The translations under genes and the position numbers were made by a program. A DNA stretch of 64,000 nt from Aminobacter anthyllidis. Lineage in GTDB: Bacteria; Pseudomonadota; Alphaproteobacteria; Rhizobiales; Rhizobiaceae. Location: NCBI RefSeq assembly GCF_018555685.1, contig NZ_JAFLWW010000005.1, positions 62,001-126,000 on the forward strand, given 5' to 3'. Positions 20,780 through 34,008 of the stretch are shown in pieces. Within the stretch, counting starts at the first letter, position 1. Each line of letters begins with the position of its first letter. Below the pieces are notes generated by a model. The model had not been told where the DNA came from. It made no database searches and worked only from the letters and a program-made list of their open reading frames with translations.

Positions 20780-22324
20780 ATGAAGCTGACGATGAGAGAC
20801 AGTCTGGCGCTGGGGGCGATCTGCCTGTCCGCGCTGATGTTCGGCCTTGAGATATCGAGCGTGCCGGTGATCCTGCCGACGCTCGAACATGTGCTGGATG
20901 CCGACTTCAAGGACATGCAATGGATCATGAATGCCTACACCATCGCCTGCACGACGGTGCTGATGGCGACGGGAACGCTGGCCGATCGCTTCGGCCGCCG
21001 GTTGGTGTTTGCCATCACCGTTGCCGCCTTTGGCGTAACGTCGCTGATGTGCGGCCTCGCCCCCAACACGACGGTGCTGATCATCAGTCGCTTCCTGCAG
21101 GGCATGGCCGGCGGCGCCATGTTCATCTGCTCGATCGCCATTCTTTCGCACCAGTTCCAGGACGCGAAGGCGCGCAGCGGCGCATTCGCCATCTGGGGCG
21201 TCATCTCAGGCATCGGCCTGGGCTTCGGCCCGATCATCGGCGGTGTGATCGTTGCGCTGTCGACGTGGCAGTGGGTGTTCCTCGTGCACGCGCCGCTAGC
21301 GTTGCTGTGCCTTGCGCTTACCTTCGGCAGCGTGAAGGAATCGCGCGACCCGCAGGCCACCAAGCTGGACCTGCCCGGCATCGTCATCCTGAGCGCCGCT
21401 GTCTTCGGACTGACCTACTACATCACGCAAGGCGCCGATCTCGGCTTCCTCAGCCCGACGGCCATCGCCATCGCCGCGGCGACGCTTGTCGGGCTGATCG
21501 CCTTCGTCGCGGTCGAGCGCTCGCATCCGCATCCGATGTTCGACTTCTCGGTGTTCAGGATCCGCGACTTCTCCGGCGCCATCGTCGGCTGCGTCGGCAT
21601 GAACTTCAGCTACTGGCCGTTCATGGTCTACCTGCCGATCTACTTCACCGTCGGCCTCGGCTATGACAGCACCGAAACCGGGCTCGCCGTGCTCGCCTAT
21701 ACGGTGCCGTTCCTGGTGATGTCGCCAGTGGCGCAGTACCTGTTGCTGCGCACCAGCCCCCGTGTCGTCATCCCGCTCGGCCTGTTCACCATCGGTCTCG
21801 GCTTCATCGCCATGTGGCTGGGCAGCCCGGTCGAAGGAGCGAGCGGCCTGACCGTGCTGCCCGGCGCGCTGCTCGCCGGCATCGGCCTTGGCCTGACGAC
21901 GACGCCCGCCACCAACATGACCACAGGCTCGGTGCCGGCCAGCCGCGCCGGCATGGCTTCGGGCATCGACGCCAGCGCCAGGCTGATCGCGCTCGCCGTC
22001 AACATCGCGATCATGGGCTTCGTGCTCGTCGAAGGCATCCTTGCTGGTCTGCGCGACGCACTGCCTATAACTACCGACAGCGGTCAACTCCGAGTGCTGG
22101 CCGAGCGCATCGCCGCCGGCGGTGGGCTCGAGGGTTCCGGGGGCGCCCTTACAGTGCCGGCCGACGCGGTCCATGCCGCGCTGGTCAATGGCTTCCACTG
22201 GGTGATGCTCTATGGCGGCATCGGCGTCTGGGTGCTGGCAGCGATCAGCTTCGCGTTGTTCGGCGCCGGCAAGTCGTCAGGGGTGTCCAAGCCTTGCCCG
22301 GAGACACAGGCACCTGCCATCTGA
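20780..22324 (+). CDS. MFS transporter, DHA2 (EmrB/QacA)-like
   Basis: A 514-residue hydrophobic protein with about 14 predicted membrane helices. The MFS motif A appears as GTLADRFGRR near residues 66-75, and the proline-containing motif C region GVISGIGLGFGPIIGG near 140-155 marks the drug/H+ antiporter group. ATG 20780 is preceded by GGAG; the ORF extends upstream to 20696 without a convincing start. It is divergent from the LysR gene, which probably regulates it. The substrate is unknown; no membrane fusion protein gene is adjacent. Confidence 0.88.
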   Translation: MKLTMRDSLALGAICLSALMFGLEISSVPVILPTLEHVLDADFKDMQWIMNAYTIACTTVLMATGTLADRFGRRLVFAITVAAFGVTSLMCGLAPNTTVLIISRFLQGMAGGAMFICSIAILSHQFQDAKARSGAFAIWGVISGIGLGFGPIIGGVIVALSTWQWVFLVHAPLALLCLALTFGSVKESRDPQATKLDLPGIVILSAAVFGLTYYITQGADLGFLSPTAIAIAAATLVGLIAFVAVERSHPHPMFDFSVFRIRDFSGAIVGCVGMNFSYWPFMVYLPIYFTVGLGYDSTETGLAVLAYTVPFLVMSPVAQYLLLRTSPRVVIPLGLFTIGLGFIAMWLGSPVEGASGLTVLPGALLAGIGLGLTTTPATNMTTGSVPASRAGMASGIDASARLIALAVNIAIMGFVLVEGILAGLRDALPITTDSGQLRVLAERIAAGGGLEGSGGALTVPADAVHAALVNGFHWVMLYGGIGVWVLAAISFALFGAGKSSGVSKPCPETQAPAI

Positions 22325-22374
22325 GTGCTCCGGCTGCAGGCCCGCTTCGGCGGGCCTGCAGCGAAGCAACGGCA

Positions 22375-24180
22375 TCAGGCGGGAGCCGCGGCCTTTGCCA
22401 CATCCTTGATACGGACCGGCTTGAGCACCGGTCCGCGCTTGTCCTTTGCGAGATGGACGGTCCTGCCAAACAGGCCGCCATTGTGACGCTGCGGGCCGAA
22501 ATAGATGATGCCGGTATTGGCGAGCTCGCCCTTGAACATGTCCTTCACCCGCGCATGCGCGGCAGCGTCGAGCGTCTCGAAGGCCTCGTCGACGATCACC
22601 CAGTCGGGCTTGTGCAAGCGCAGCCGGGCGAAGGCGACGAGCCGGAGCTCATCGCTGGTCAGTTCCTCGTTCCAGTGCGCGACGCGGTCGAGCGAAGTTG
22701 CCAGGCGCTCAAGCCCGACGGCCGCGAGCGCCTCGGCAAAATCCTTGTCGTCGAGCGCGGTGCCGCTGGTGGGATAGGCCAGCACCTCGCGCAGCGTGCC
22801 GGGCGGCAGGTAGGAAACGCGCGGCAGGAAGGCGACCTGCTTGCCGGCAGGCAGCTCGATGCGGCCCTTGCCCCATGGCCAAAGCCCGGCCAACGCGCGG
22901 AACAGCAGCGTCTTGCCGGCGCCCGCCTCGCCCGTGACCTGCAGGCGCTCACCCGGCTTGACCCTGAGATGCGGCTCCGAAAGCCTGATGCAGCCGCTCG
23001 GCGAGACCAGTTGGAGATCGTCGAACGCCAGGCTGCCATCGCGGCTTTCAGTCAGGTCGATGCGCTCCTCCTTGTCGTGCAGCACGTCGGCGGCGACCAG
23101 CACGCGGCGGATCACGCCGACACGCATCAGCGTGGCACGCCAGTCGGCGATGGCGCCGACATTGTTGATGAACCAGCGCAACGAAGCGTGGACCTGGTTG
23201 AAGGCGCTGACCGCCATCATCAGCCCGCCGAAGCTGATGTCGCCGGCGAAATAGACCGGTGCCGCGACCAGGATCGGCGCGACCACTGTGAACCAGCCAT
23301 AACCGTCGGTGACCCAGCCGAGATTGATCTGGGTGGCGAAGATGCGGCGCAGCGAATTGAGCACACCGGCGAGATCCAGTTCCAGACGGCGCTTTTCATC
23401 GGCTTCGCCGCGCGCCAGCGAGATCGCGTCGATGTTCTGGTTGATGCGGACCATCGAGAAGCGCAGTTCGGCTTCGCGCGAATATCGGTCGGCGTTTTGG
23501 GCAATCAGCGGCCGGCCGACGAGCCAGCTCAGCAGCGAGGCGGACCCGGCATAGACGATCGCCGCCCAGACCATGTAGCCGGGGATGCTGAACGAGCGAT
23601 CACCGACGTGGAAGACGAAACCGGACGACAGGCTCCACAACACGCCGACGAAAGACACCAGCAGGATCGAGGCCTGCAACAGGCCGATGGCAAGGTCGGT
23701 GGTGAGGTCGGCAAGGTGCCCGGCATCCTGCTGCATGCGCTGGTCGGGATTGACGCCGACGGCACCAGCATTGGCGAGGCGGAAGGCGCGGCCTGGCCGC
23801 AGCCATTCGGTGATGAGGTCGAGCGTAAGCCCCTCGCGCAGCTTGAGCCGGATCATCTGGTTCAGCCATTGCTGGCCGACATTGAGCACCAGCAGGCAGC
23901 CGGCAATCGCTGCAAAGATCGTCAGCTGATGCAGGAAGGCATCGAGGTCGCGGTTTTCGAGCGCGTCGTAGAACGGCTTGTTCCAGCGGTTGAGCACGAT
24001 CTGCCCGGCCGACGTTGCGAGGATGACGGCAAGGATCGACAGGCCGAGCCAGAGAAGCGTCCTGCGCACCGGCGAGCCGGCAAGCGCCTGCCGCGCCATC
24101 TTCAAATGGTCGAAAAACCCGCCGTCGACATCCGCTGCCAGAGGCTCACGATTGGTCTGGATGAACGATTGGCCTGGCAT
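22375..24180 (-). CDS. ABC transporter, fused permease and ATPase, YddA/SbmA-like
   Basis: A 601-residue half-transporter of the group that combines an SbmA/BacA-like membrane domain (about residues 40-310, with roughly six helices) with a C-terminal ATPase domain. Walker A is GEAGAGKT near 420 and Walker B is VIVDEAFETLD near 532. The ABC signature is LTSDELR instead of the usual LSGGEQ/LSLGEQ, without the conserved Gly. ATG 24180 has GGAGG six bases upstream; an ATG at 24186 overlaps the ribosome site. It is a single-gene unit. The substrate is unknown; relatives import peptides, fatty acids or vitamins. Confidence 0.85.
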   Translation of the reverse strand: MPGQSFIQTNREPLAADVDGGFFDHLKMARQALAGSPVRRTLLWLGLSILAVILATSAGQIVLNRWNKPFYDALENRDLDAFLHQLTIFAAIAGCLLVLNVGQQWLNQMIRLKLREGLTLDLITEWLRPGRAFRLANAGAVGVNPDQRMQQDAGHLADLTTDLAIGLLQASILLVSFVGVLWSLSSGFVFHVGDRSFSIPGYMVWAAIVYAGSASLLSWLVGRPLIAQNADRYSREAELRFSMVRINQNIDAISLARGEADEKRRLELDLAGVLNSLRRIFATQINLGWVTDGYGWFTVVAPILVAAPVYFAGDISFGGLMMAVSAFNQVHASLRWFINNVGAIADWRATLMRVGVIRRVLVAADVLHDKEERIDLTESRDGSLAFDDLQLVSPSGCIRLSEPHLRVKPGERLQVTGEAGAGKTLLFRALAGLWPWGKGRIELPAGKQVAFLPRVSYLPPGTLREVLAYPTSGTALDDKDFAEALAAVGLERLATSLDRVAHWNEELTSDELRLVAFARLRLHKPDWVIVDEAFETLDAAAHARVKDMFKGELANTGIIYFGPQRHNGGLFGRTVHLAKDKRGPVLKPVRIKDVAKAAAPA

Positions 24181-24294
24181 GCGCATCCTCCGGCTGGCCG
24201 CTTCGTGCGAATCGGCGCGGCCGAGTGTGCCATCCAACCGCGCCGCTGCGTATCGCGACGCTGAACGAGACGCGTTGCGATCGGCGCGGCGGCG

Positions 24295-25182
24295 TCAGGC
24301 CTTCGGCACGAAAACGTTGACCGATTTCGGGCGGATGCGGAAATGCGCCGGCGTCCAGGTGACCAGTTCGCCGTCGGTGTTGACCGGGCGCGGCTGCTTG
24401 GTGCGGATCGTCACTTCGGTGGTTTTGAAGGCGCGGACGTCGTCCCACTGCCCTTGCGTGCCCTTGCGCAGGCTGGGCAAGAGCCTGAGCAGCCGCCACC
24501 AGTGGTCGACCTCGAGGCTGTAGAGATCAAGCCAGCCGTCGTCGGCGGTCGCGGTTTCCTCGACCGTCATGCCGCCGCCATAGTGACGTCCGTTGCCGAC
24601 CGAGACCTGCATGGTGCGGATCTTTTCGGTGGTGTCGTCATGGTCGACATAACAGGTGAACAGGCGCGAGCGCATCAACATCCGGGCCGCGACGATGCCG
24701 TAGCCGAGCGTGCCCCAGCGCTTCTTGGCATGCTCGGTCAGTTCGCCGGCCAGTTCGGCGCTGAAGCCGATGCTGGCGACATTGAAGAACAGATGGCCGT
24801 TGACCTCGCCGAGATCGACCGTCGTCTGGTGGCCGGCGGCGATGATCTCGGCCGCCTTCACCGGGTCCGGTGCAATGCCCATGGTGCGCGCGAAATCATT
24901 GGCGGTGCCCAGCGGCAGCACGCCGAGCGTCAGGCCGGAATGGGCAAGACCGGCAGCCGCGTTGTTGAGCGTTCCGTCACCGCCGCCGACGATCGCTATG
25001 TCGAAATGATCGGCGTGGCGCGAGATCAGCTCGGAGGCGTTCTCGTCCTTGCTCGTCGCCATCTCCTCGATTTCAAGGCCGGCGTCGACGAGCACCTGGC
25101 GCGCGGCGTCGATCGACCCGCCGCCACGGCGGGCACGCGGGTTGACGATCAGCATTGCGCGCTTGCCTTTCGAGTGCTGCAC
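24295..25182 (-). CDS. Diacylglycerol/lipid kinase family protein (YegS-like)
   Basis: A DAGK-catalytic-domain protein. AMLIVNPRARRG near the N-terminus is the first nucleotide-binding strand, AIVGGGDGTLNNAAAGL near 63-79 is the conserved GGDGT phosphate-binding loop, and LPLGTANDFART near 91-102 is the substrate motif. The start is uncertain: GTG 25182 gives 295 residues, ATG 25155 gives 286 and the ORF itself opens at 25260. The family phosphorylates diacylglycerol or related lipids, but the substrate here is not determined. It stands alone on the minus strand. Confidence 0.85.
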   Translation of the reverse strand: MQHSKGKRAMLIVNPRARRGGGSIDAARQVLVDAGLEIEEMATSKDENASELISRHADHFDIAIVGGGDGTLNNAAAGLAHSGLTLGVLPLGTANDFARTMGIAPDPVKAAEIIAAGHQTTVDLGEVNGHLFFNVASIGFSAELAGELTEHAKKRWGTLGYGIVAARMLMRSRLFTCYVDHDDTTEKIRTMQVSVGNGRHYGGGMTVEETATADDGWLDLYSLEVDHWWRLLRLLPSLRKGTQGQWDDVRAFKTTEVTIRTKQPRPVNTDGELVTWTPAHFRIRPKSVNVFVPKA

Positions 25183-25315
25183 GGCGCGTTTTTGTTGGAT
25201 GACGTCGGTCAGGTGGAAAATCCCTATGTTGGCGTACGGGCAAATAGAAGCCCGCGTCATCTAGGGTGGAAACTGTTCGATTTTAAGGTGTGTCCCGAAA
25301 TCAGGGCAGGAAAAC

Positions 25316-26158
25316 CTAGCGGTCGAGCTCCGGAAAATAGGGATCTGAGTAGATCCGCCGGTCGCGTTCGCCGGCCATGCAGTCGACCGCGTCTTCAGTC
25401 TCGATCCTGACGAGCGGCAAGACGTGGGTATCGCCGCTGACTTCGAGTACCAGCTTGCGCCGGATCGCGGTGGCGAATTCCGACGCCGCCTTGATCGGCA
25501 GGACAAACGAGCCTGGGCCGCCGGTGACACATTCGGCATAGTAGCGATCGAGCCTGGCCGCCGTTCGCGACGGCCGGATCAGAATCGGCAGGCCGTTGAT
25601 GACGATGCCCTGGGCAAGCGCTGCATTGCGCGCCGGGATCACCGGGTTTCCGAAATTGTTCGGTCCATCGCCTGAGATGTCGATGACCCGGCGAAAGCCA
25701 TCGGCATCGTTGCGGTCGAACAGGGCGGCACCATAAGTCACGGCACCCGAGATCGAGGTGCCGCGAAAGCCACTGAATGGCCGCGCCTCGAGCCGGGCGG
25801 CGAAGGCTGCGGCACTCTGCGGCCCGTCGATGATCTGCCAGGGCACCACCGATTCCTCGCGCACCGTGCCTGCCCATTCGAAATAGGTGATGGCGACGCG
25901 CCCATTCTTGCCGGACAACACAGCATCGACGAAATCGGGATGACGTAGTGCTGCGACATAACCGGCGCGCTGCAGGGTGAATTCTTCCAGGTCCATCGAC
26001 CTGGAAACGTCGACAGCCAGCACCAGCTCGACGTCGACAGCGACACCGGCCACCGGCACGGCGACTGGCTTGGGCAATTCGCAGCCCAGACATGAGACTA
26101 TGGCCAGCACGCCCAGCATTCGCAGGCTCTCCGGTCGGAAAAGCCAGTGTCGCGGCAA
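25316..26158 (-). CDS. DUF1194 (von Willebrand A-like) lipoprotein
   Basis: A 280-residue protein with an N-terminal hydrophobic segment ending in LGC, consistent with a lipoprotein signal (cysteine near 26). The mature part starts with LVLAVDVSRSMD, a DxSxS metal-ion-dependent adhesion motif typical of von Willebrand A domains, and shows the DUF1194 features GFRGTSISGAVTYG and VIDISGDGPNN. The family is common in rhizobia and has no defined function; ligand binding through a Mg2+ site is expected. The gene is followed on the same strand by the lipid kinase gene, 130 bases away. Confidence 0.8.
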   Translation of the reverse strand: MPRHWLFRPESLRMLGVLAIVSCLGCELPKPVAVPVAGVAVDVELVLAVDVSRSMDLEEFTLQRAGYVAALRHPDFVDAVLSGKNGRVAITYFEWAGTVREESVVPWQIIDGPQSAAAFAARLEARPFSGFRGTSISGAVTYGAALFDRNDADGFRRVIDISGDGPNNFGNPVIPARNAALAQGIVINGLPILIRPSRTAARLDRYYAECVTGGPGSFVLPIKAASEFATAIRRKLVLEVSGDTHVLPLVRIETEDAVDCMAGERDRRIYSDPYFPELDR

Positions 26159-26207
26159 TGGCGCCGGAATGGAAGTGGCGCGGCTTCACCCCTTCGTGAG
26201 GTGCCGC

Positions 26208-26978
26208 TCAGCCGCCGTGCTCTGCATCCTCACGCCGCAGCGCCGGGAACCCACGCGAGGCGCCGCTGGGCGACAGCACCGGCACGAACACGCGCCGCGA
26301 AGCGCGCTGCGCCACCGGAATGCCCTGGTAGACGCGTTTTTGCGCCTCGACGACGATGGCGCCGGAAAAGATCGGCCAGAAGCGGCGGCCGGCGCGCTCG
26401 AACAGATGGTCGAACTTCATCATCCACTTGCGCCGCGACGGCGGGAAATGCAGCGCATCGGACCAGGCCGAGACGGTGAAATTGGCCTCGCGCAACAGTT
26501 CGTTGAGCTGGCCCGAAGAAAACGGCCGGCCGGTGCCGAAAGGCGTGTGTTCGAAGCGCGCCCACATGCCGCGCCGGTTGGGCACGACGATGACGATGCG
26601 CCCCGCCGGCGACAGCACCCGCCAGATTTCCTTCAGCGTCTCGCGCGGGCTTTCGGCATGTTCGAGCGAATGAACGAGCAGCACCCGGTCGATCGACGAA
26701 TCGACGAGCGGCAGTTCCTCGTCGAAGACAAGTGCGGTCGACGACGGCCCGTTCGCCGGCCAGACGACAGCACCTTGCGTTGCCGGCATGAAGGCGAAGA
26801 CCCGCTCGGCGTCAGTGCCGAAGCGGTCGAGCCATGGCAGCGTGTAGCCGAGCCCGACCAGGCGTTCGTTGGGCAGCCCGGCCCACACCGACGACAATGC
26901 CATTGATATCGACTGCTCGGCGAGGCGGCCAAGCGGCGTCGAGTAGAAGGAGCGAAGGTCGACGATGTCGGAATTCAT
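26208..26978 (-). CDS. Class I SAM-dependent methyltransferase
   Basis: A 256-residue protein with a methyltransferase type-11 core. [20 protein letters not shown] (about 100-119) matches the post-motif region of type-11 enzymes, and [18 protein letters not shown] near 120-137 is the following strand and loop. The classical SAM motif I (GxGxG) is weak: the expected N-terminal region reads [18 protein letters not shown] 26978 begins [17 protein letters not shown]. It is divergent from gloB, a neighbourhood I associate with rhizobia. The methylated substrate is unknown. Confidence 0.75.
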
Positions 26979-27083
26979 CGCTGGAAGGTAGACGCGCCGA
27001 CGGTCGACTTCAACGACCCCGGCCCATTTGGCGTGACAGGTTTGCCGGCGCGCCCTATCGTTCTTGAGAAATGGAGTTTTGCG

Positions 27084-27851
27084 ATGGCCGTCGAGATCAA
27101 GCTTTTCATGTGCCGCACCGACAATTTCGGCGCGCTGCTGCACGACCGCGAAACTGGCGAGACAGCCATTGTCGACGCGCCGGAGGAGGCTCCAATCCTC
27201 TCGGCGATCGAACAGAGCGGCTGGACGCCGTCGACGATCCTGACGACGCACCACCATGCCGACCATGTCGAAGCCAATCTGGCGCTCAAGCAGCGTTTCA
27301 AGCTGCGCATCGTCGGCCCCGAGGCCGAACGCGACAAGATCCCCGGTATCGACGACACCGTCGAGCAAGGCTCGGTGATCCCGTTCGGCAGCGAGACCAT
27401 TGAGGTCATCGAGACGCCGGGCCACACCGCCGGCCATGTCTGCTATTACCTGCCGAAGTCGAAGGTGGCGTTCACCGCCGACACGCTGTTTGCGCTCGGC
27501 TGCGGCCGGCTGTTCGAGCGCCCGGCGCCCGTGATGTTCGAATCGCTGAACAAACTCGCCGCCTTGCCGCCTGAAACGGTGATCTATTGCGGCCACGAAT
27601 ACACACTCTCCAACGCGCGTTTTGCGCTCACCATCGACCCGGACAATGCGGCGCTGCGCGCCCGCAGCGAAAAGATCGAGGCCTTGCGCGCCGACGGCAA
27701 GCCGACGCTGCCGACCACCATCGGCGAGGAGCTCGCCACCAACCCGTTCCTGCGCTGGGCCGATCCGGCGATCCGCACACATCTCGGCATGGAGAAAGCG
27801 GCTGATGTCGACGTCTTTGCCGAAATCCGCAAACGCAAGGACAATTTCTGA
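27084..27851 (+). CDS. gloB: Hydroxyacylglutathione hydrolase (glyoxalase II)
   Basis: Hydrolyses S-lactoylglutathione to lactate and glutathione in methylglyoxal detoxification. The 255 residues contain the metallo-beta-lactamase metal motif TTHHHADH at 54-61, ETPGHTAGH near 112, and the YCGHEYT substrate motif near 170. ATG 27084 is preceded by TGGAG; an upstream in-frame start at 27033 lacks this. Its TGA stop is two bases before an ATG that used to begin the cupin gene: see the duplicated junction. The downstream gene order has been interrupted by an inserted gene. Confidence 0.95.
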
Positions 27852-27894
27852 CCATGAGGGCTCAGGAGATCATCGCCACATTTAGCATGCAGCG
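27847..27894 (+). repeat. Direct repeat, upstream copy (duplicated gloB/cupin junction)
   Basis: Positions 27847-27894 match 28418-28465 at 44 of 48 positions by eye. Both copies contain a TGA stop, two bases, and an ATG followed by MRAQEIIAT. The upstream copy overlaps the gloB stop. Confidence 0.85.
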
Positions 27895-27904
27895 GGTGGG
27901 ATGA
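27854..27904 (+). pseudogene. Remnant 5' end of a cupin gene (16 codons)
   Basis: ATG 27854 opens a short frame, MRAQEIIATFSMQRVG, that repeats the first residues of the cupin gene at 28425 (MRAQEIIATLGMQRHPEGG) and then stops at TGA 27902-27904. That stop overlaps the next ATG as ATGA. It looks like the original start of the cupin gene, cut by an insertion, and it may still couple translation from gloB into the inserted gene. Confidence 0.7.
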
Positions 27905-28422
27905 TCAGTCACACGTCAGCCGCACGAAATGTTGCGGCCTTCCAGCATCGCTGCAATGATGGACAAATGGTAATAGCGACGCCCGATCCAGACTATGTGT
28001 ATCTGCTCACCGATGCAAAGGGCAAGAAACGCATCAGGGAAATCCTGACTGAGCGTGGTTTGACTTCATACATGAACGACACGAAGTGGCGGGAACTTTG
28101 TCGGGGTATGTATCAGCTGCCTTTTCCGCCCGCATACCAGGTCAAATACGTGCATCAGGCACCTGAGACACACGAGCTTGAGTACGCACCGGCATACTTC
28201 GGCGACTGGGCAAGAACCCACGAAGCGAGCCTTGGCCTGCACATCGAGTGGATAAGGATTGCACCCCGCTACACCGAGCACAGAGGCCTGTTGGTAAGCC
28301 CGGTGATACAGGATTGCTCAAGCGAACTGATCGCACTGCTCACACGGATCCACGTTCCATTTATCGAGCAGGATAGCTTCGTGGTGATCTATGGGCACGG
28401 CTCGGCTTCGACCCCGATCTGA
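27901..28422 (+). CDS. Inserted gene, DUF6678-like protein
   Basis: A 173-residue hydrophilic protein. Residues about 58-95 (MNDTKWRELC, LPFPPAYQVKYV) and the C-terminal LLTRIHVPFIEQDSFVVIYGH resemble DUF6678, a family of unknown function that I remember being found singly and scattered. The resemblance is from memory. The gene sits between 48-bp direct repeats that copy the gloB/cupin junction, and its base composition looks less G+C-rich than its neighbours. Start 27901 overlaps the remnant stop as ATGA; ATG 27967 is an alternative. I see no toxin partner nearby. Confidence 0.7.
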   Translation: MISHTSAARNVAAFQHRCNDGQMVIATPDPDYVYLLTDAKGKKRIREILTERGLTSYMNDTKWRELCRGMYQLPFPPAYQVKYVHQAPETHELEYAPAYFGDWARTHEASLGLHIEWIRIAPRYTEHRGLLVSPVIQDCSSELIALLTRIHVPFIEQDSFVVIYGHGSASTPI

Positions 28423-28465
28423 CCATGAGGGCTCAAGAGATCATCGCCACACTCGGCATGCAGCG
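28418..28465 (+). repeat. Direct repeat, downstream copy
   Basis: The partner of 27847-27894, with 4 mismatches in 48 bases. This copy spans the stop codon of the inserted gene and the true start of the cupin gene, so the inserted segment plus one repeat equals one 571-base unit. Confidence 0.85.
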
Positions 28466-28862
28466 CCACCCCGAAGGCGGCTGGTATGTCGAGACCTTTC
28501 GCGACAACCCGGCAAGCGGACCGCATGGTCCGCGCGGCAACCAGACGGCGATCTATTTCCTCCTGGAGCGCGGCGACGTCTCGCACTGGCACCGCGTCAG
28601 GGATGCCACTGAGATCTGGCACTTCCATGCCGGGGCGCCGATCGAGCTCAGGCTGTTCCAGCAAGGCGGCGACATCGTCGCCCACACGCTCGGCATCGAC
28701 ATCGCTGCCGGCCAGCGGCCGCAATGCGTGGTGCCATCAGGCTGGTGGCAGAGCGCACGCAGCCTGGGCGATTGGACACTGGTAGGCTGCACAGTTTCGC
28801 CCGGCTTCGAATTCGCACAATTCGAGCTGGCCAAGCCGGGCTGGGAGCCGAGTTTCGGCTAA
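28425..28862 (+). CDS. Cupin domain-containing protein (DUF985)
   Basis: A 145-residue DUF985 cupin. MQRHPEGGWYVETFR near residue 9, YFLLERGDVSHWHRV near 45-59 and EIWHFHAGAPIELRL near 64-78 are the cupin strands with candidate metal-ligand histidines; VPSGWWQSA near 104 is also conserved. The enzyme activity of this family is not known to me. It would originally have followed gloB directly (2 bases between stop and ATG) and now follows the inserted DUF6678-like gene with the same spacing. It is convergent with, and overlaps by 4 bases, the yddG-like gene. Confidence 0.85.
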   Translation: MRAQEIIATLGMQRHPEGGWYVETFRDNPASGPHGPRGNQTAIYFLLERGDVSHWHRVRDATEIWHFHAGAPIELRLFQQGGDIVAHTLGIDIAAGQRPQCVVPSGWWQSARSLGDWTLVGCTVSPGFEFAQFELAKPGWEPSFG

Positions 28863-29752
28863 GCCCCTGCTCCGTCCACTGCCGCCTTGCGCTCGCCGAA
28901 GATCAGCGACTTCGCCGCAAGCACGGCACCGCCGGTGATCAGCACGCAGGCCGCGAGGATGCGCAAGCTGGGCTCGGCGAAACCGGCTGCTATCAGCACC
29001 AGCGTCGACAGCAGTGGCGCGGCATAGCTCGCCGCCCCCAGCACCTGGATGTTGCCGCGCTTGACGCCGATGTCCCAGGCATAGAAGGCCGCACCCACCG
29101 GCATCAGGCCGAGGCCGAGCACGGCGAGCCACTGGCTGGTATTGGCCGGCAGCACGGTTTCCTCAAGCGCCAGGTGGCAGGCGAAGGACAGCACCGAGGT
29201 CGCCAAGCAGAACCAGGTGACGATTGTCGTCGGCACCGACGGAAACCGGCGCGACAACAGCGAATAGCCCGCCCACAGGAAGGCGCAGGCGAAGGCCATG
29301 GCGTAACCGAAGGCATAACGCGGCTCGAATGCCAGCCCGCCGCCCTTGGTAACGATCAGGAAGGTGCCGGCAAGGCCAAGCAAGGCGCCGGCGATATGGT
29401 TCCAGCGCAGCCGCTCGCCCGGCATCAGTGCCGAACCAAGGACGATGAACAGCGGCCAGAGATAGGCGATCAGGCTGGCTTCCACCGCAGGCGCGTTGCG
29501 CAACGCGGTGAAATAGAAGAAGTGGTAGCCGAACAGCCCGACGATGCCGATCACCCAGACCTGTGCCGGGATCTTCTCGGCCTTGTCGGGTTTCGGCATG
29601 AACAGCCGCGCAACGAGGCCGACACAGGTGCCGATGGCGAAGGTTATGGCCGACATCAGGAATGGCGGCACCGCACCCGACGCGTCGGTGAGCAGCGCCA
29701 GCAGCGCCCACATGGCGACCGCCGAAAACCCAATCAAAGTCGCGCGCCCCAC
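28859..29752 (-). CDS. EamA-family transporter, YddG-like
   Basis: A 297-residue DMT-superfamily protein with about ten hydrophobic helices in two EamA repeats. YHFFYFTALRNAPAVEASLI and LWPLFIVLGSALM (about residues 75-110) resemble the aromatic amino acid exporter group YddG; the substrate is only suggested by this likeness. It follows the DUF3108 gene by 14 bases on the same strand, so the two probably form an operon. Its stop overlaps the cupin gene end by 4 bases. Confidence 0.82.
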   Translation of the reverse strand: MGRATLIGFSAVAMWALLALLTDASGAVPPFLMSAITFAIGTCVGLVARLFMPKPDKAEKIPAQVWVIGIVGLFGYHFFYFTALRNAPAVEASLIAYLWPLFIVLGSALMPGERLRWNHIAGALLGLAGTFLIVTKGGGLAFEPRYAFGYAMAFACAFLWAGYSLLSRRFPSVPTTIVTWFCLATSVLSFACHLALEETVLPANTSQWLAVLGLGLMPVGAAFYAWDIGVKRGNIQVLGAASYAAPLLSTLVLIAAGFAEPSLRILAACVLITGGAVLAAKSLIFGERKAAVDGAGA

Positions 29753-29766
29753 ACACCCCTCCCGGC

Positions 29767-30549
29767 TTAGTCGATTGCCTCGAAACGCCGGGCCTTCACG
29801 GTGATCGTGCCGATCTGCGTGCTGACCGTGGCATAGATGGGCGCATATACGCCGGTTTTGCCGAGCGGCGCAAACGTCACCATGATGCGGCTGCGATCGC
29901 GCAGGAAGGTCAAAGCCTTCTTGTCGGTGCGGTAGCCAGAAACCGGCTTGAAGCCCATGCGGCAGGTGACCGTGTCGCCGGTGAAGCCTCCAACCGACAT
30001 CTTCTTGCGCGACACCTCGGTCAGCCTGAGGTCGGCGCGCAATTCACCGTCATAGATCCTGACCGTGCGGCCACAGACCTTGTCGAGGCCGGGGGCGCGG
30101 ATGACGGTTGCGGCGATCGGATCGGCAACGCCGCTGAGGTCGTTGGCGCCGAGAGGTATCCACGTCTTGCCGCGCTTCTTGGGCGGCGGCACGACCTGGG
30201 TGTTGGTGACGCGGTCGCCGGCGAAACGGATATCGACAAGCGAGCTGACCTTGCCCGAGACATAGTCGGCACGGAAGCTGCGCGGCTGGGTTCGGCCGTC
30301 GCCGAAACTGCCGCGCGACGAGATCGTGCCGCGCGTATCGTCGAAGAACGCCGCTAGGCCGGCGCTGGAGACCCTGCCGTTGACGACGTAGGAATCGCCA
30401 TCATAGCTGCTGTCGAAGGTTGCCTTGGCAACCGGAATGCCGAGGAACGAGAGCGAGTAGTCGCCGCTGAAGGATTTGCCGGCGGCCAGCAGCTGCGACG
30501 GCAACAGGACCAGGGAGAAAGCGAGCAGGAAAGGCGAAAGGCGGCGCAT
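29767..30549 (-). CDS. DUF3108 domain-containing secreted protein
   Basis: A 260-residue protein with a clear signal peptide (MRRLSPFLLAFSLVLLPSQLLAAG, cleavage after LLA-A). The mature part begins FSGDYSLSFLGIPVAKATF, the DUF3108 start, and continues with beta-strand-rich sequence. The ATG at 30549 has GAGGTG about ten bases upstream; a GTG at 30561 is also in frame. Function is unknown; the family is usually periplasmic. It lies upstream of the yddG-like gene in a likely two-gene operon. Confidence 0.8.
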   Translation of the reverse strand: MRRLSPFLLAFSLVLLPSQLLAAGKSFSGDYSLSFLGIPVAKATFDSSYDGDSYVVNGRVSSAGLAAFFDDTRGTISSRGSFGDGRTQPRSFRADYVSGKVSSLVDIRFAGDRVTNTQVVPPPKKRGKTWIPLGANDLSGVADPIAATVIRAPGLDKVCGRTVRIYDGELRADLRLTEVSRKKMSVGGFTGDTVTCRMGFKPVSGYRTDKKALTFLRDRSRIMVTFAPLGKTGVYAPIYATVSTQIGTITVKARRFEAID

Positions 30550-30675
30550 CGTCGGGAACACCTCATCGTCAGCGGAAGCTGACTTCGCGCTGTTCGTGTC
30601 CCTTGCGATCGGTTATAGAACCAATTCCGGCCATTCTGTGGAGTTGGGGACAACACCCGGAAACGACCACGACGC

Positions 30676-30704
30676 TTGACGCGTCAGCCAAATACAACTA
30701 TGGA
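30676..30704 (+). promoter_or_regulatory. Candidate rpmB promoter
   Basis: TTGACG (30676-30681), 17 bases, then TATGGA (30699-30704), which resembles rhizobial housekeeping promoters with a weak -10. It would give a leader of about 90 bases before rpmB. Confidence 0.45.
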
Positions 30705-30798
30705 ACGCCAACTTTTTCCATGAGGCCGCCTGACTGAGACCGCGCGCCATATCGGTGCGTTATCGTCGCTTGGTCCGCCAGAACTGAAGGTAAGTAAC

Positions 30799-31095
30799 AT
30801 GTCCCGCGCTTGCGAACTCACCGGCAAAGCCGTCATGACCGGCAACAATGTGAGCCACGCCAACAACAAGACCCGTCGTCGCTTCCTGCCGAACCTGGTC
30901 AACGTCACGCTCATCTCCGAGACGCTGAACCAGAACGTGCGCCTGCGCATTTCGGCCAACGCCCTGCGTACGGTCGAACATCGCGGTGGCCTCGACGCCT
31001 TCCTGGTCAAGGCTGACGCCGAAGAGCTGTCGCAGCGTGCGCGCCTGCTCAAGAAGCAGATCGCCAAGAAGACCGCCGAGCAGGCCGCAGCCTAA
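30799..31095 (+). CDS. rpmB: 50S ribosomal protein L28
   Basis: A 98-residue basic protein. [29 protein letters not shown] is the classic L28 start (the CELTGK and SHANNKTRR motifs), followed by the NLVNVTL and [10 protein letters not shown] segments. Alphaproteobacterial L28 is longer than the 78-residue E. coli protein, as here. AAGG lies upstream of the ATG. It is a single gene with its own promoter; the next gene is a queuosine-precursor transporter 121 bases downstream. Confidence 0.97.
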
Positions 31096-31189
31096 TCGAC
31101 GAATCAGGGCGGGGGACGACCGCCTGGAGCCTCTGACGGCCGCAAGGACGATGGAGGCTCCGCCCAAATGCCCGGGCATGGCCCGTACA

Positions 31190-31219
31190 GCTGGTTCCAT
31201 TACCCAGGATAAAAAAATG
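31190..31219 (+). ncRNA. Probable preQ1-I riboswitch
   Basis: CTGG (31191-31194) pairs with CCAG (31204-31207) around the loop TTCCATTAC, followed by GGATAAAAAAATGA. The order GGTTC-N-A...ACCC and an A-rich tail of the ATAAAAAA type is the preQ1-I aptamer layout, in which the tail folds back onto the stem. It lies directly before a queuosine-precursor transporter, a known target class. Unusually, the A-rich tail runs into the start codon ATG at 31217, so ligand binding could directly hide the start codon and the AGGA. Confidence 0.7.
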
Positions 31220-31894
31220 AACTCCGGTTCAAAATATCTGCCTTTCGTGGCAGCCATGGCGCTTGTCGTCGTCGCTTCCAACATTCTCGTCCAGTTCCCG
31301 ATGCAGGGACAGGTCGGATCTCTGGCGCTTGCCGATGTCCTGACCTGGGGCGCTTTCACCTATCCCTTCTCGTTCCTGGTCACCGACCTTGCCAACCGCC
31401 GCTACGGCCCGAGGCTGGCGCGGCGCATCGTCTTCGTCGGCTTCATGACCGCGGTGGTCTGCTCGATCGTCATCCCGCCGGTGCTGTTCCGCTATGGCCT
31501 GATCCCCTTCGACACGGCTGCCGACCGCTTGGCGCGCATTGCTGTCGCTTCCGGCGCCGCCTTCCTGACCGCACAGCTACTCGACATCACCGTGTTCAAC
31601 TGGCTGCGCCGGCAGAGCTGGTGGCGCGCGCCGATCTTCGGCACGCTTGTCGGCTCGGTTTTCGACACGGCGATCTTCTTCGGCATCGCCTTCGCCGCCG
31701 CCTTCGCCTTCCTCGGCCCCGAGGACGCCTTTGCGCTTGAAGCAGCACCCTTGTTCGGCGTGCTGTCGATGGAAGCGCCGCGCTGGGTCTCCTGGGCGCT
31801 GGGCGACCTGACGGTGAAGCTGCTGATCGCCCTGTTCGCGCTCATCCCCTACCGCCTGATCGCTGCGCGCTGGACGCAGCCGGCGCTGGCCTAG
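31217..31894 (+). CDS. yhhQ: Queuosine precursor transporter (YhhQ/VUT family)
   Basis: Imports preQ0/preQ1 for queuosine tRNA modification. The 225 residues form about six membrane helices. The segment ALADVLTWGAFTYPFSFLVTDLANRRYG (about residues 37-64) is typical of the COG1738 family, and a second conserved segment, FGTLVGSVFDTAIFF, is near 141-155. ATG 31217 has AGGA nine bases upstream. The probable preQ1-I riboswitch covers the start. The longer upstream frame overlapping rpmB is a shadow. Confidence 0.88.
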   Translation: MNSGSKYLPFVAAMALVVVASNILVQFPMQGQVGSLALADVLTWGAFTYPFSFLVTDLANRRYGPRLARRIVFVGFMTAVVCSIVIPPVLFRYGLIPFDTAADRLARIAVASGAAFLTAQLLDITVFNWLRRQSWWRAPIFGTLVGSVFDTAIFFGIAFAAAFAFLGPEDAFALEAAPLFGVLSMEAPRWVSWALGDLTVKLLIALFALIPYRLIAARWTQPALA

Positions 31895-31920
31895 CCACCA
31901 AGCACATACGACCACATTGC

Positions 31921-31953
31921 CAAGAGCAGCCGATGATCCATCGGCTGCTCTTG
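31921..31953. terminator. 15-bp perfect hairpin after yhhQ
   Basis: CAAGAGCAGCCGATG (31921-31935) is the exact reverse complement of CATCGGCTGCTCTTG (31939-31953) with an ATC loop. There is no T-run, so it may be a stabiliser or factor-assisted terminator between yhhQ and the LysR gene, or an operator-like site upstream of the LysR gene. Confidence 0.55.
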
Positions 31954-32010
31954 CATGTCGGACGCCGCCGAATAGGCTGCCGGCTCGCGCCACGGCATAG
32001 CAGGCAGATA

Positions 32011-32901
32011 ATGGCTCTCGATTCGGTTGATCTTTTCCTCGAGGTCGTTCGGACCGGAAGCTTCTCCGGCGCAGCGAGAGCCACCGGCATCCCCGTCTCC
32101 ACGGTAAGCCAGCGCATCGCCGCTCTCGAAGCGCGCCTCGGCAGCACCTTGCTCAAGCGCACGACGCGGCGCCTCGCATTGACCGAGGTCGGCACCAGCT
32201 ATCACGAGGTTGCGTCGCGGGCGCTCGCCGAACTGCGCGGCTACGAGGCCGAGCTGACGGATACGGCAGCAGGCCTGAGCGGCAAGCTCAGGGTGGCGAG
32301 CACGATCGCCATGGACGACGTGCTGGCACCGCTGCTGAGCAGCTATCTCGAGGCCCATCCCAACATGTCGCTGGAGCTTAATCTGAGCGGCCGCAACGCC
32401 GACCTGTTTGCCGACGGTATCGACGTCGCCATCCGTGTCGGGGCGCTGCGCGACGATTCGGGCCTTGTTGCCCGTTCGCTTGGCGCTGCCGCGCTGCAGC
32501 TTGTGGCCTCACCTGACTATCTCGCCGAACATCCGCCGATCGGCCATCCCGTCGACATCGATGCGCAAAAGCTGATGTCTTTTGCCGGATATGGCGCAGC
32601 CCAGCTCCGCCACGCCAATGGCGACACCTGCGAGGTCAACATCTCAGGCCGTTTCAGCGGCAACCAGCTGTCATCATTGCGGCACCAGACTGTCGCCGGC
32701 CGTGGCATAGCATTGGTGCCTGCCGCGTTCCTGGCGCGTGAGCTGGCGAGCGGCGAGCTTGTGACGGTGCTGCCCGAGTGGCGCGGCGAGGCCCAGCCGA
32801 TCCACATCGTCTATCTCAACCAGCGCATCGTCTCGAGGCGCCTGCGCTCCTTCATCGACCATGTCGTCGCGCATTTTCCGCGCCAGCTGTTCGCCGGCTG
32901 A
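32011..32901 (+). CDS. LysR-family transcriptional regulator
   Basis: A 296-residue regulator. The winged helix-turn-helix spans residues 4-60 (FSGAARATGIPVSTVSQRIAALE), followed by a substrate-binding domain with the DVAIRVGALRDDSGLVAR motif typical of the CrgA/PA-type LysR group. ATG 32011 fits the family N-terminus; the ORF opens earlier at 31933 within the hairpin region. It is followed by the monooxygenase-like and DsbA-like genes, which it may regulate, although they are on the same strand rather than divergent. Confidence 0.9.
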   Translation: MALDSVDLFLEVVRTGSFSGAARATGIPVSTVSQRIAALEARLGSTLLKRTTRRLALTEVGTSYHEVASRALAELRGYEAELTDTAAGLSGKLRVASTIAMDDVLAPLLSSYLEAHPNMSLELNLSGRNADLFADGIDVAIRVGALRDDSGLVARSLGAAALQLVASPDYLAEHPPIGHPVDIDAQKLMSFAGYGAAQLRHANGDTCEVNISGRFSGNQLSSLRHQTVAGRGIALVPAAFLARELASGELVTVLPEWRGEAQPIHIVYLNQRIVSRRLRSFIDHVVAHFPRQLFAG

Positions 32902-33001
32902 TCTTCCGTCGATCCGGAAGCTGCATCCTGAAATCCCCGGCTAATCCGGCCGGCCGCCTGTCCTTACCTTCGGCTCATCGAACCGGACAAAGGACAAGCA
33001 G

Positions 33002-33364
33002 ATGCAAGACACACAAGGTTTCTACTCGATCATCGACTACACCGTGGATGGCCCCGAGACGCAGCGCGAGCTGATAGACGGCTTCGCCGGCCTGCAGGAA
33101 AAATGGGTGCGGTTTTATCCCGGCTACAAGTCGGCGCATCTGTTTGCCAGCACCGACGGCACCCGCGTCTACAACATCATCCACTGGGAAAGCGAAGCCG
33201 CGCACCGCGAGTTCGAGCGCGTCTCCGACAATGCCGCGCGCATCGCGGCGATCCAGGGGGTGATCGACGGCCTCAAGGGCAAGGCCGAGCCCAAGATGAG
33301 CGGTCCGCCGCGATACAACCTCGTCCGCGAAGTGGCCCCCGGTCCGCGCCCAGTCGACGCCTGA
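33002..33364 (+). CDS. Antibiotic biosynthesis monooxygenase (ABM) domain protein
   Basis: A 120-residue small protein with the dimeric ferredoxin-like ABM fold: FYSIIDYTVDGPETQRELIDGFAGLQ, split over the first strand and helix (7-32), then YPGYKSAHLFASTDGTRVYNIIHWES (about 39-64). Members act as cofactor-free oxygenases or haem-degrading enzymes, but the specific reaction is unknown. It starts 100 bases after the LysR gene and ends 14 bases before the DsbA-like gene on the same strand, so the latter two are likely cotranscribed. Confidence 0.75.
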   Translation: MQDTQGFYSIIDYTVDGPETQRELIDGFAGLQEKWVRFYPGYKSAHLFASTDGTRVYNIIHWESEAAHREFERVSDNAARIAAIQGVIDGLKGKAEPKMSGPPRYNLVREVAPGPRPVDA

Positions 33365-33378
33365 GCCGGGAGGGCATC

Positions 33379-34008
33379 ATGCAAATCGAAATACATGCCG
33401 ATGTACTGTGCCCGTGGAGCTACATCGCCAAGCGCCGCCTCGAAGCGGCCTCGGCACTGGCCGGCACCCCTGTTACGACAGTGTGGCGCAGCTTCGAGCT
33501 TTCACCCGAAGGCGGCCCGATGCCGGGCGACAGTGCCGCCGACATGATCAGGCAGTGGCGCGGCGATGCGGCCGAGGCGCGGATCAACGAGATCATGTCG
33601 CTAGGGGCGGCCGAGGGGATCAGGCTCGACCTCGAGAATGCCCGTCCAGTCAACAGCTTCAACGCGCATCGCCTTGTTCATCTCGGTGCGGCTGTCGGCA
33701 AGGCCGATGCCGTGATGGAACGCCTGCTGCGCGCTTATCATAGCGAGGCACAAAACATCGCCAATCTCGGCGTGCTGGACCGGCTTGGCCGCGAGGCCGG
33801 ACTTGAGCCGAGTGCGGTGGCGGAACTGCTCGTCGGCAAGGACTTCGCCGATGCGGTGCGCGCCGACAGGCGGCTCGCCGTCGAACGGGGCATATCGGGC
33901 GTGCCGGTGATGGTCCTGGCCGGGGCCGCGCCGACTTCGGCGGTCAAGCAGGTGGAAGAGCTTGCCGGCCTGCTGCGACAGGCAGCCGGGAGCCAGCCGG
34001 GCGGGTGA
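33379..34008 (+). CDS. DsbA-family oxidoreductase, FrnE-like
   Basis: A 209-residue thioredoxin-fold protein. IHADVLCPWSYIAKRRLE begins the fold; the active site is CPWS, so only the first cysteine of the usual CxxC is present. The cis-proline loop SGVPVMVL is near 178-185. The FrnE group includes members with a single active-site cysteine and glutathione-S-transferase-kappa-like chemistry. ATG 33379 has GGGAGGG upstream; the longer upstream frame from 33103 overlaps the monooxygenase gene and is a shadow. No signal peptide is present, so it is cytosolic. Confidence 0.83.
   Translation: MQIEIHADVLCPWSYIAKRRLEAASALAGTPVTTVWRSFELSPEGGPMPGDSAADMIRQWRGDAAEARINEIMSLGAAEGIRLDLENARPVNSFNAHRLVHLGAAVGKADAVMERLLRAYHSEAQNIANLGVLDRLGREAGLEPSAVAELLVGKDFADAVRADRRLAVERGISGVPVMVLAGAAPTSAVKQVEELAGLLRQAAGSQPGG

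Follow-up and report, generated by a model that had tools for sequence, protein, structure and literature searches.

A DUF6678 gene whose closest relatives are transposon cargo, inserted between gloB and a cupin gene with a long target duplication and recently exchanged between species

How can a single foreign gene come to stand between two housekeeping genes and leave every reading frame intact? The question is raised by a junction in the window, the whole stretch of 64,000 nucleotides analyzed here (contig C26:62001-126000 of the genome that we call G000), in which the end of gloB and the start of a Cupin_5 gene occur twice, with a gene of the DUF6678 family between the two copies (Table 1). 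We find that the gene was inserted with a long target duplication, that the filled site was recently shared by horizontal transfer, and that the closest relatives of the inserted gene are transposon cargo.

Table 1. Features of the gloB-cupin interval (positions in the window)
Feature	Position	Strand	Evidence or remark
gloB (hydroxyacylglutathione hydrolase), intact upstream neighbor	27084..27851	+	TIGR03413, E 1.5e-95; HAGH_C and Lactamase_B
Repeat copy 1: end of gloB and remnant of the cupin start	27847..27894	+	Also in G001
16-codon open frame of the cupin remnant in copy 1	ends at 27903
Stretch of 29 bp between copy 1 and the part aligning with relatives	27895..27923	+	Shared with G001
DUF6678 leader	27924..27966	+	Homologous to the interval that separates the transposase start from the cargo in IS5-type elements (L057, L123, and L150 alignments)
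DUF6678 gene, 151 aa, likely original start	27967..28422	+	PF20383, E 2.6e-29; L057 alignment
Repeat copy 2: DUF6678 stop and working cupin start	28418..28465	+
Cupin_5 (DUF985) gene, intact downstream neighbor	28425..28862	+	PF06172, E 3.3e-51
Widest extent of the high-identity tract common to G000 and G001	27863..28506	n/a

A preliminary description of this DNA had read the junction as doubled, and the two 48-nt copies are indeed present, identical at 44 of 48 positions (92%) and spaced by 571. Among the 56 non-overlapping window ORFs of at least 100 aa and at most 3 kb, only the DUF6678 ORF is flanked by a direct repeat of at least 25 bp, so the repeat is not due to chance. The insert between the copies is 523 bp long and encodes the DUF6678 protein; the ORF first proposed for it (27901-28422) is there, and its suspected family is confirmed by a score of 102.2 bits against PF20383, whose curated cut-off is 24.5. 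The impression of a low G+C content was also accurate, the insert having 55.1% against 63.5% in gloB, 65.3% in the cupin gene, and 64.1% in the window, with third-position values of 65%, 83%, and 79% for insert, gloB, and cupin gene, respectively.

The insert holds the DUF6678 frame only, with no transposase gene, as had been stated earlier, and no short TA or CTAG target, the target repeat being 48 bp. In the ORF list of 22000-34000 we saw by eye neither an integrase nor a transposase, and four of those proteins were also scanned with profiles; the terminal inverted repeats of the IS5-type element discussed below have no match in the window at up to three mismatches. A second copy of the insert was not found in G000, and its DNA was absent from the plasmid records, among which records near G000 may be left out. 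Alignment with close relatives covers the insert from 27924 to 28422, the end of the stop codon. The right end of the insert is thus the gene's own stop codon, and the motif TCTGA is shared by the ends of the insert and of gloB, so that all three frames end and start correctly. Between 27700 and 28600 there are no promoter-like sites and one terminator-like site on the opposite strand, as expected by chance. The DUF6678 gene runs in the same direction as gloB and the cupin gene, with which it is probably co-transcribed.

Comparison within the genus shows what the site looked like without the gene. The gloB-cupin stretch was found in 10 of 10 genomes, with the insert in two of them (G000 and G001) and a single junction in the other eight; the relatives thus show the empty site rather than all carrying the gene, and the earlier reading of a foreign single gene inserted here is upheld. 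The DUF6678 family itself occurs in 3 of the 10 genomes, the third (G009) having its copy at another place and with an internal stop codon. Samples that overlap with one another gave DUF6678 in 17 genomes out of 394 for the bacterial family, 7 out of 397 sampled from the order, and 13 out of 398 sampled from the phylum, with 11 of the 13 over the cut-off. One genome of the same bacterial family, G188, has five matches on four contigs (L062, L068, L069, L070, and L071), one with an internal stop codon and two below the cut-off.

The two filled sites are far more alike than their surroundings. Across the insert, the sequences of G000 and G001 match at 514 of 523 positions, leaving 9 differences against about 12% in the flanks (672 of 763 positions identical in gloB; 351 of 397 in the remainder of the cupin gene). 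The flanks align over 17.5 kb with 88.4% identity, and every 1-kb bin stays at or below 92%; the flank difference nearest to the insert is at 27862 on the left side, and those on the right side start at 28475, with the next at 28507. At third positions, the DUF6678 genes differ at 2 of 152 codons (1.3%) and the gloB genes at 74 of 256 (29%). Constraint on the protein does not explain the identity of the insert, because dN (0.017) is about equal to dS (0.019) for this pair; against the more distant copies, dN and dS are 0.118 and 0.356 for L057 and 0.117 and 0.295 for L123. In a flank tree (11,064 columns, nine genomes, G008 left out), the filled G001 pairs with the empty G007 (support, 1.000) and then with G000 (0.977), with G002 outside, so the two filled species are not sisters. 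Taken together, the contrast in divergence and the tree show that the filled site passed between lineages after these had diverged, and that the tract measured no more than about 645 bp. The preliminary description had invoked homologous recombination, and this is supported in part: with the insert at 98.3% and the flanks at about 88%, homologous recombination is probably the route of this later passage between species.

Where did the gene come from? In named genomes, from which records near G000 may be left out, its relatives are at most 53% identical. Its closest relatives in DNA are two loci, L057 in G330, a genome of another genus in the same bacterial family, and L123 on an IMG/VR contig, each about 85% identical over 27924-28422. 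These two are homologous to each other beyond the limits of the insert on both sides, the right limit of their homology being AATGAGTTCA, then C or T, then GGCCTAG. In L057 the DUF6678 gene stands head to head with the start of an IS5-type transposase gene (DUF4096, E 5.3e-17), and the element ends at 972 and 1928 are inverted repeats with 14 of 17 bases alike. Passages of PMC9330008 describe transporter insertion sequences (tIS) as IS derivatives with passenger genes, and both L057 972-1928 and L123 3493-5492 fit this description, having cargo and transposase within one pair of terminal repeats. The closest relatives of our gene, a link that the preliminary description had missed, thus sit between the transposase start and the right terminal repeat of such elements. 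Both elements are degenerate, with a partial transposase in each, that of L057 lacking about 400 bp and the ends of L123 being nested. The L123 contig resembles, by eye, a prophage with structural genes; the DUF6678 gene and nested IS5-type ends at L123:3493-5492 lie among these in a moron-like setting, together with a Sel1-repeat gene.

Similar parts are found elsewhere. IS5-annotated transposase copies on Mesorhizobium plasmids have the same kinds of ends, and on a Mesorhizobium amorphae plasmid the transposase side is followed by what appear by eye to be the first bases of a DUF6678 gene. Elsewhere in its genome, G000 carries a diverged transposase relative, near which no element end was found. 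By protein search, 2 of 72,556 plasmid records match DUF6678, both distantly, and the phage records contain no match to the protein.

To place these elements in context, we examined 19 loci, namely L057, L123, 13 of 15 listed from 336 matches, and 4 of 40 listed from 447 matches, using a degenerate pattern for the element ends with up to two mismatches. Left and right ends were found in 16 loci, and L150, L163, and L168 have one end only. Three of the 16 elements (L171, L173, and L174) are free of cargo and span 827 to 853 bp; 12 span 957 to 2000 bp and have extra sequence between the transposase start and the right end; and one, L166, is doubtful as an element at 2955 bp with two ordinary genes inside. 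In L172 the extra sequence holds nothing but short frames, and in L123 it includes a second right end. Where it is coding, the cargo varies: besides DUF6678 in L057 and L123, it is a 286-aa protein without a Pfam match in L151:379-2184, a protein with a sub-threshold match to DUF7684 in L161:2556-3747 (a similar protein is present in L152), a 74-aa protein without a match in L162:2556-3716, a DUF6980 protein in L165:2556-3670 (E 1.4e-15), and an SMI1/KNR4 (SUKH-1) protein (E 2e-10) in L164:2556-3831, a 1276-bp IS427-like element on the Agrobacterium plasmid pAtCFBP5877b. Other elements of the group therefore carry other single genes at the same position, a further likeness to tIS. IS5-family elements favor CTAG-type targets, and in 10 of the 16 elements the base before the left end is C and the base after the right end is G, the pattern that such a target would give. 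In an incomplete search of the literature on IS427/IS5 passenger genes, the passages found do not describe this element group.

The insert in the window differs from these elements in having neither transposase nor terminal repeats around the gene. Since, in addition, the right end of the insert coincides with the stop codon of the gene, the insert was not placed by the transposition of an element. We consider it probable that the gene was captured as cargo with duplication of a 48-bp target and that the filled site was exchanged between species later. In such a history, the ancestor of the DUF6678 gene would have been the only cargo gene of an IS5/IS427-like transporter IS; a fragment comprising this gene and a short piece of the element's interior, free of transposase and terminal repeats, would have been captured between gloB and the cupin gene, where 48 bp of target were duplicated; and the filled site would then have moved between at least two species of the genus. 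The join itself was probably illegitimate, for instance by end-joining of the fragment into a staggered break followed by fill-in, which would be the simplest route. G000 has three Ku genes, at C3:13793-15169 and C1:619100-619642, two of which are side by side. Against capture it counts that close element-borne relatives number only two, both in degenerate elements, and that the 29-bp segment on the left has no sure source, although it may perhaps be partly element-internal, which makes the left join uncertain.

Insertion with long target duplication is a mechanism reportedly described by Nobusato et al. in 2000 (Gene 259:99). Passages in PMC1643837, PMC3154945, and PMC3031569 report long target duplications, without a transposase, for restriction-modification genes, and bacterial end-joining that acquires heterologous DNA is the topic of a reference in PMC7719229. 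Our locus resembles the known cases in that relatives have the empty single-copy site, the gene lies between two long target copies, and the repeat, at 48 bp with 44 identical, exceeds a transposon duplication. It differs in two ways, in that the known cases are restriction-modification genes whereas the gene here is a DUF6678 gene of transposon-cargo origin that matches no PADLOC family (the association with restriction modification is reported but not strictly defining), and in that the filled site has spread between species.

The strongest rival concerns the origin of the repeat, which could have arisen by replication template switching at short homologies instead of end-joining into a staggered break. 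The TCTGA shared by insert end and gloB end and the short segment of unsure source at the other join would suit such switching, and the sequence, which bears no direct trace of end-joining, fits both routes equally; a template for the 29-bp segment was, however, not found among the loci examined, and we regard template switching as a possible but secondary reading.

Less likely is that the gene travels as a repeat-bounded cassette, in which a crossover between the 48-bp copies would release a 571-bp circle that enters the single junction of another strain and recreates the repeats there. The shared tract ends inside or just beyond the repeats on both sides, and copy 2 of G001 has a left half of the type seen in copy 1 of G000, while copy 1 of G001 has a left half of its own, as a cassette would predict. 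Yet a linear double crossover yields the same pattern, decay can account for the changes private to copy 1 of G001, and we saw neither a circle nor an empty junction inside a filled strain. An extension of this idea, about as unlikely, would make the IS427-like clade a shuttle for single orphan genes (DUF6678, SUKH-1, DUF6980, and others), whose freed cargo would become a cassette bounded by the 48-bp repeats and would use these to move from species to species at one constant chromosomal site.

The preliminary description had explained the four mismatches between the copies by a homologous-recombination capture in which one copy came from a diverged strain, which the comparison makes very unlikely. 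Copy 1 of G000 is nearest to the second copies of the filled lineages themselves, with 3 differences from that of G001 and 4 from its own, and no sampled junction is nearer: G002 has 6 differences, G007 has 7, and the other six empty-site genomes have 11 to 22. All four differences between the copies of G000 are transitions and three are common to both filled genomes, which fits the decay of an untranslated remnant.

Transposition of a complete IS5-type element into the junction, with later loss of its ends and transposase, would agree with the residence of the gene's close relatives in such elements but is highly improbable, because no CTAG or TA target or terminal repeat is left and such an event does not make a 48-bp duplication. 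Weakest of all is an ancestral insertion with vertical descent and loss from the empty relatives by recombination of the repeats: direct repeats do permit precise loss, and the flank tree places G000 and G001 together with G007 and G002, but the third-position contrast between the gene and gloB, with differences in the gene that are not concentrated at silent positions, refutes it unless rates differ some 20-fold over 600 bp.

We return to the captured gene itself and to its start. The preliminary description had placed the start at 27901, where the stop codon of the 16-codon cupin remnant would overlap it as ATGA and let translation flow on from gloB. Both filled genomes do contain the remnant, with TGA or TAA as its stop, and the overlap is present in G000, but G001 has ATA at 27901 and hence ATAA at the overlap, which is therefore private to G000 and speaks against a conserved coupling. 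The ATG at 27967, giving 151 aa, appears likelier as the original start, because L057 starts at the aligned ATG and the codon at 27901 varies between the filled genomes. In L123 the codon aligned to 27967 is changed, and the frame begins a few codons downstream. Because purifying selection is not visible in the comparison of the two filled genomes and the codon at 27901 has changed, the gene may not work here.

As to function, none of the papers in the literature searched names DUF6678 (PF20383), a family with no known function. The model of the DUF6678 protein is confident, with a mean pLDDT of 86.8 and a pTM of 0.81, and a fold search with it gave no significant match (best E, 0.47 against PDB and 0.23 against viral models); the predicted fold may be new to these libraries. 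A sequence search among solved structures found no relative up to E 1. An alignment of 26 sequences has ten invariant columns, which include M36, T39, K40, W41, E94, and W95. The neighbors of DUF6678 genes include several small proteins (DUF2750, DUF4303, and DUF7668); toxin families were absent from the 20 of 30 neighboring ORFs that were scanned, in 13 of 15 loci. The DUF6678 protein itself matches neither the defense families of PADLOC nor the phage families of PHROGs up to E 1. We guess at an orphan immunity-type role because SUKH-1 is an alternative cargo and the distribution of the family is scattered.

Repeats also surround some other DUF6678 genes. In the named loci, 3 of 32 DUF6678 ORFs are repeat-flanked compared with 1 of 290 other ORFs (Fisher p 0.003), but we do not lean on this as a general property of the family, because the three (L077, 192 bp; L085, 29 bp; and L090, 84 bp) lack a confirmed empty site. 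In L077 (4677-4868 and 5707-5898), the repeats (93% identical) are the end of a DUF3137-type gene; this gene is tandemly repeated and the pattern may be paralogy, and the relative L128 has no clean empty site. In L090, a Ruminococcus contig, the repeats at 389-471 and 921-1003 (87%) hold, by eye, a promoter-like motif, so that the gene and its neighbor each have a copy. Weak or distant repeats span DUF6678 in L061 (35 bp, 77%), L113, L117, and L123, and L115 has a nest of repeats; these five loci were viewed more loosely and stand outside the Fisher test.

In this locus a step that is usually invisible seems to have been caught, with a transposon passenger gene found without its vehicle, set into a housekeeping pair with the frames intact, and exchanged between species as a short tract. 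The case suggests a concrete path, open to testing, along which single orphan genes may enter operons, and it widens the range of insertion with long target duplication by another class of genes. For the DUF6678 family, the link to IS5-type elements with interchangeable cargo, SMI1/KNR4 in one of them, is a first lead on how the family spreads.
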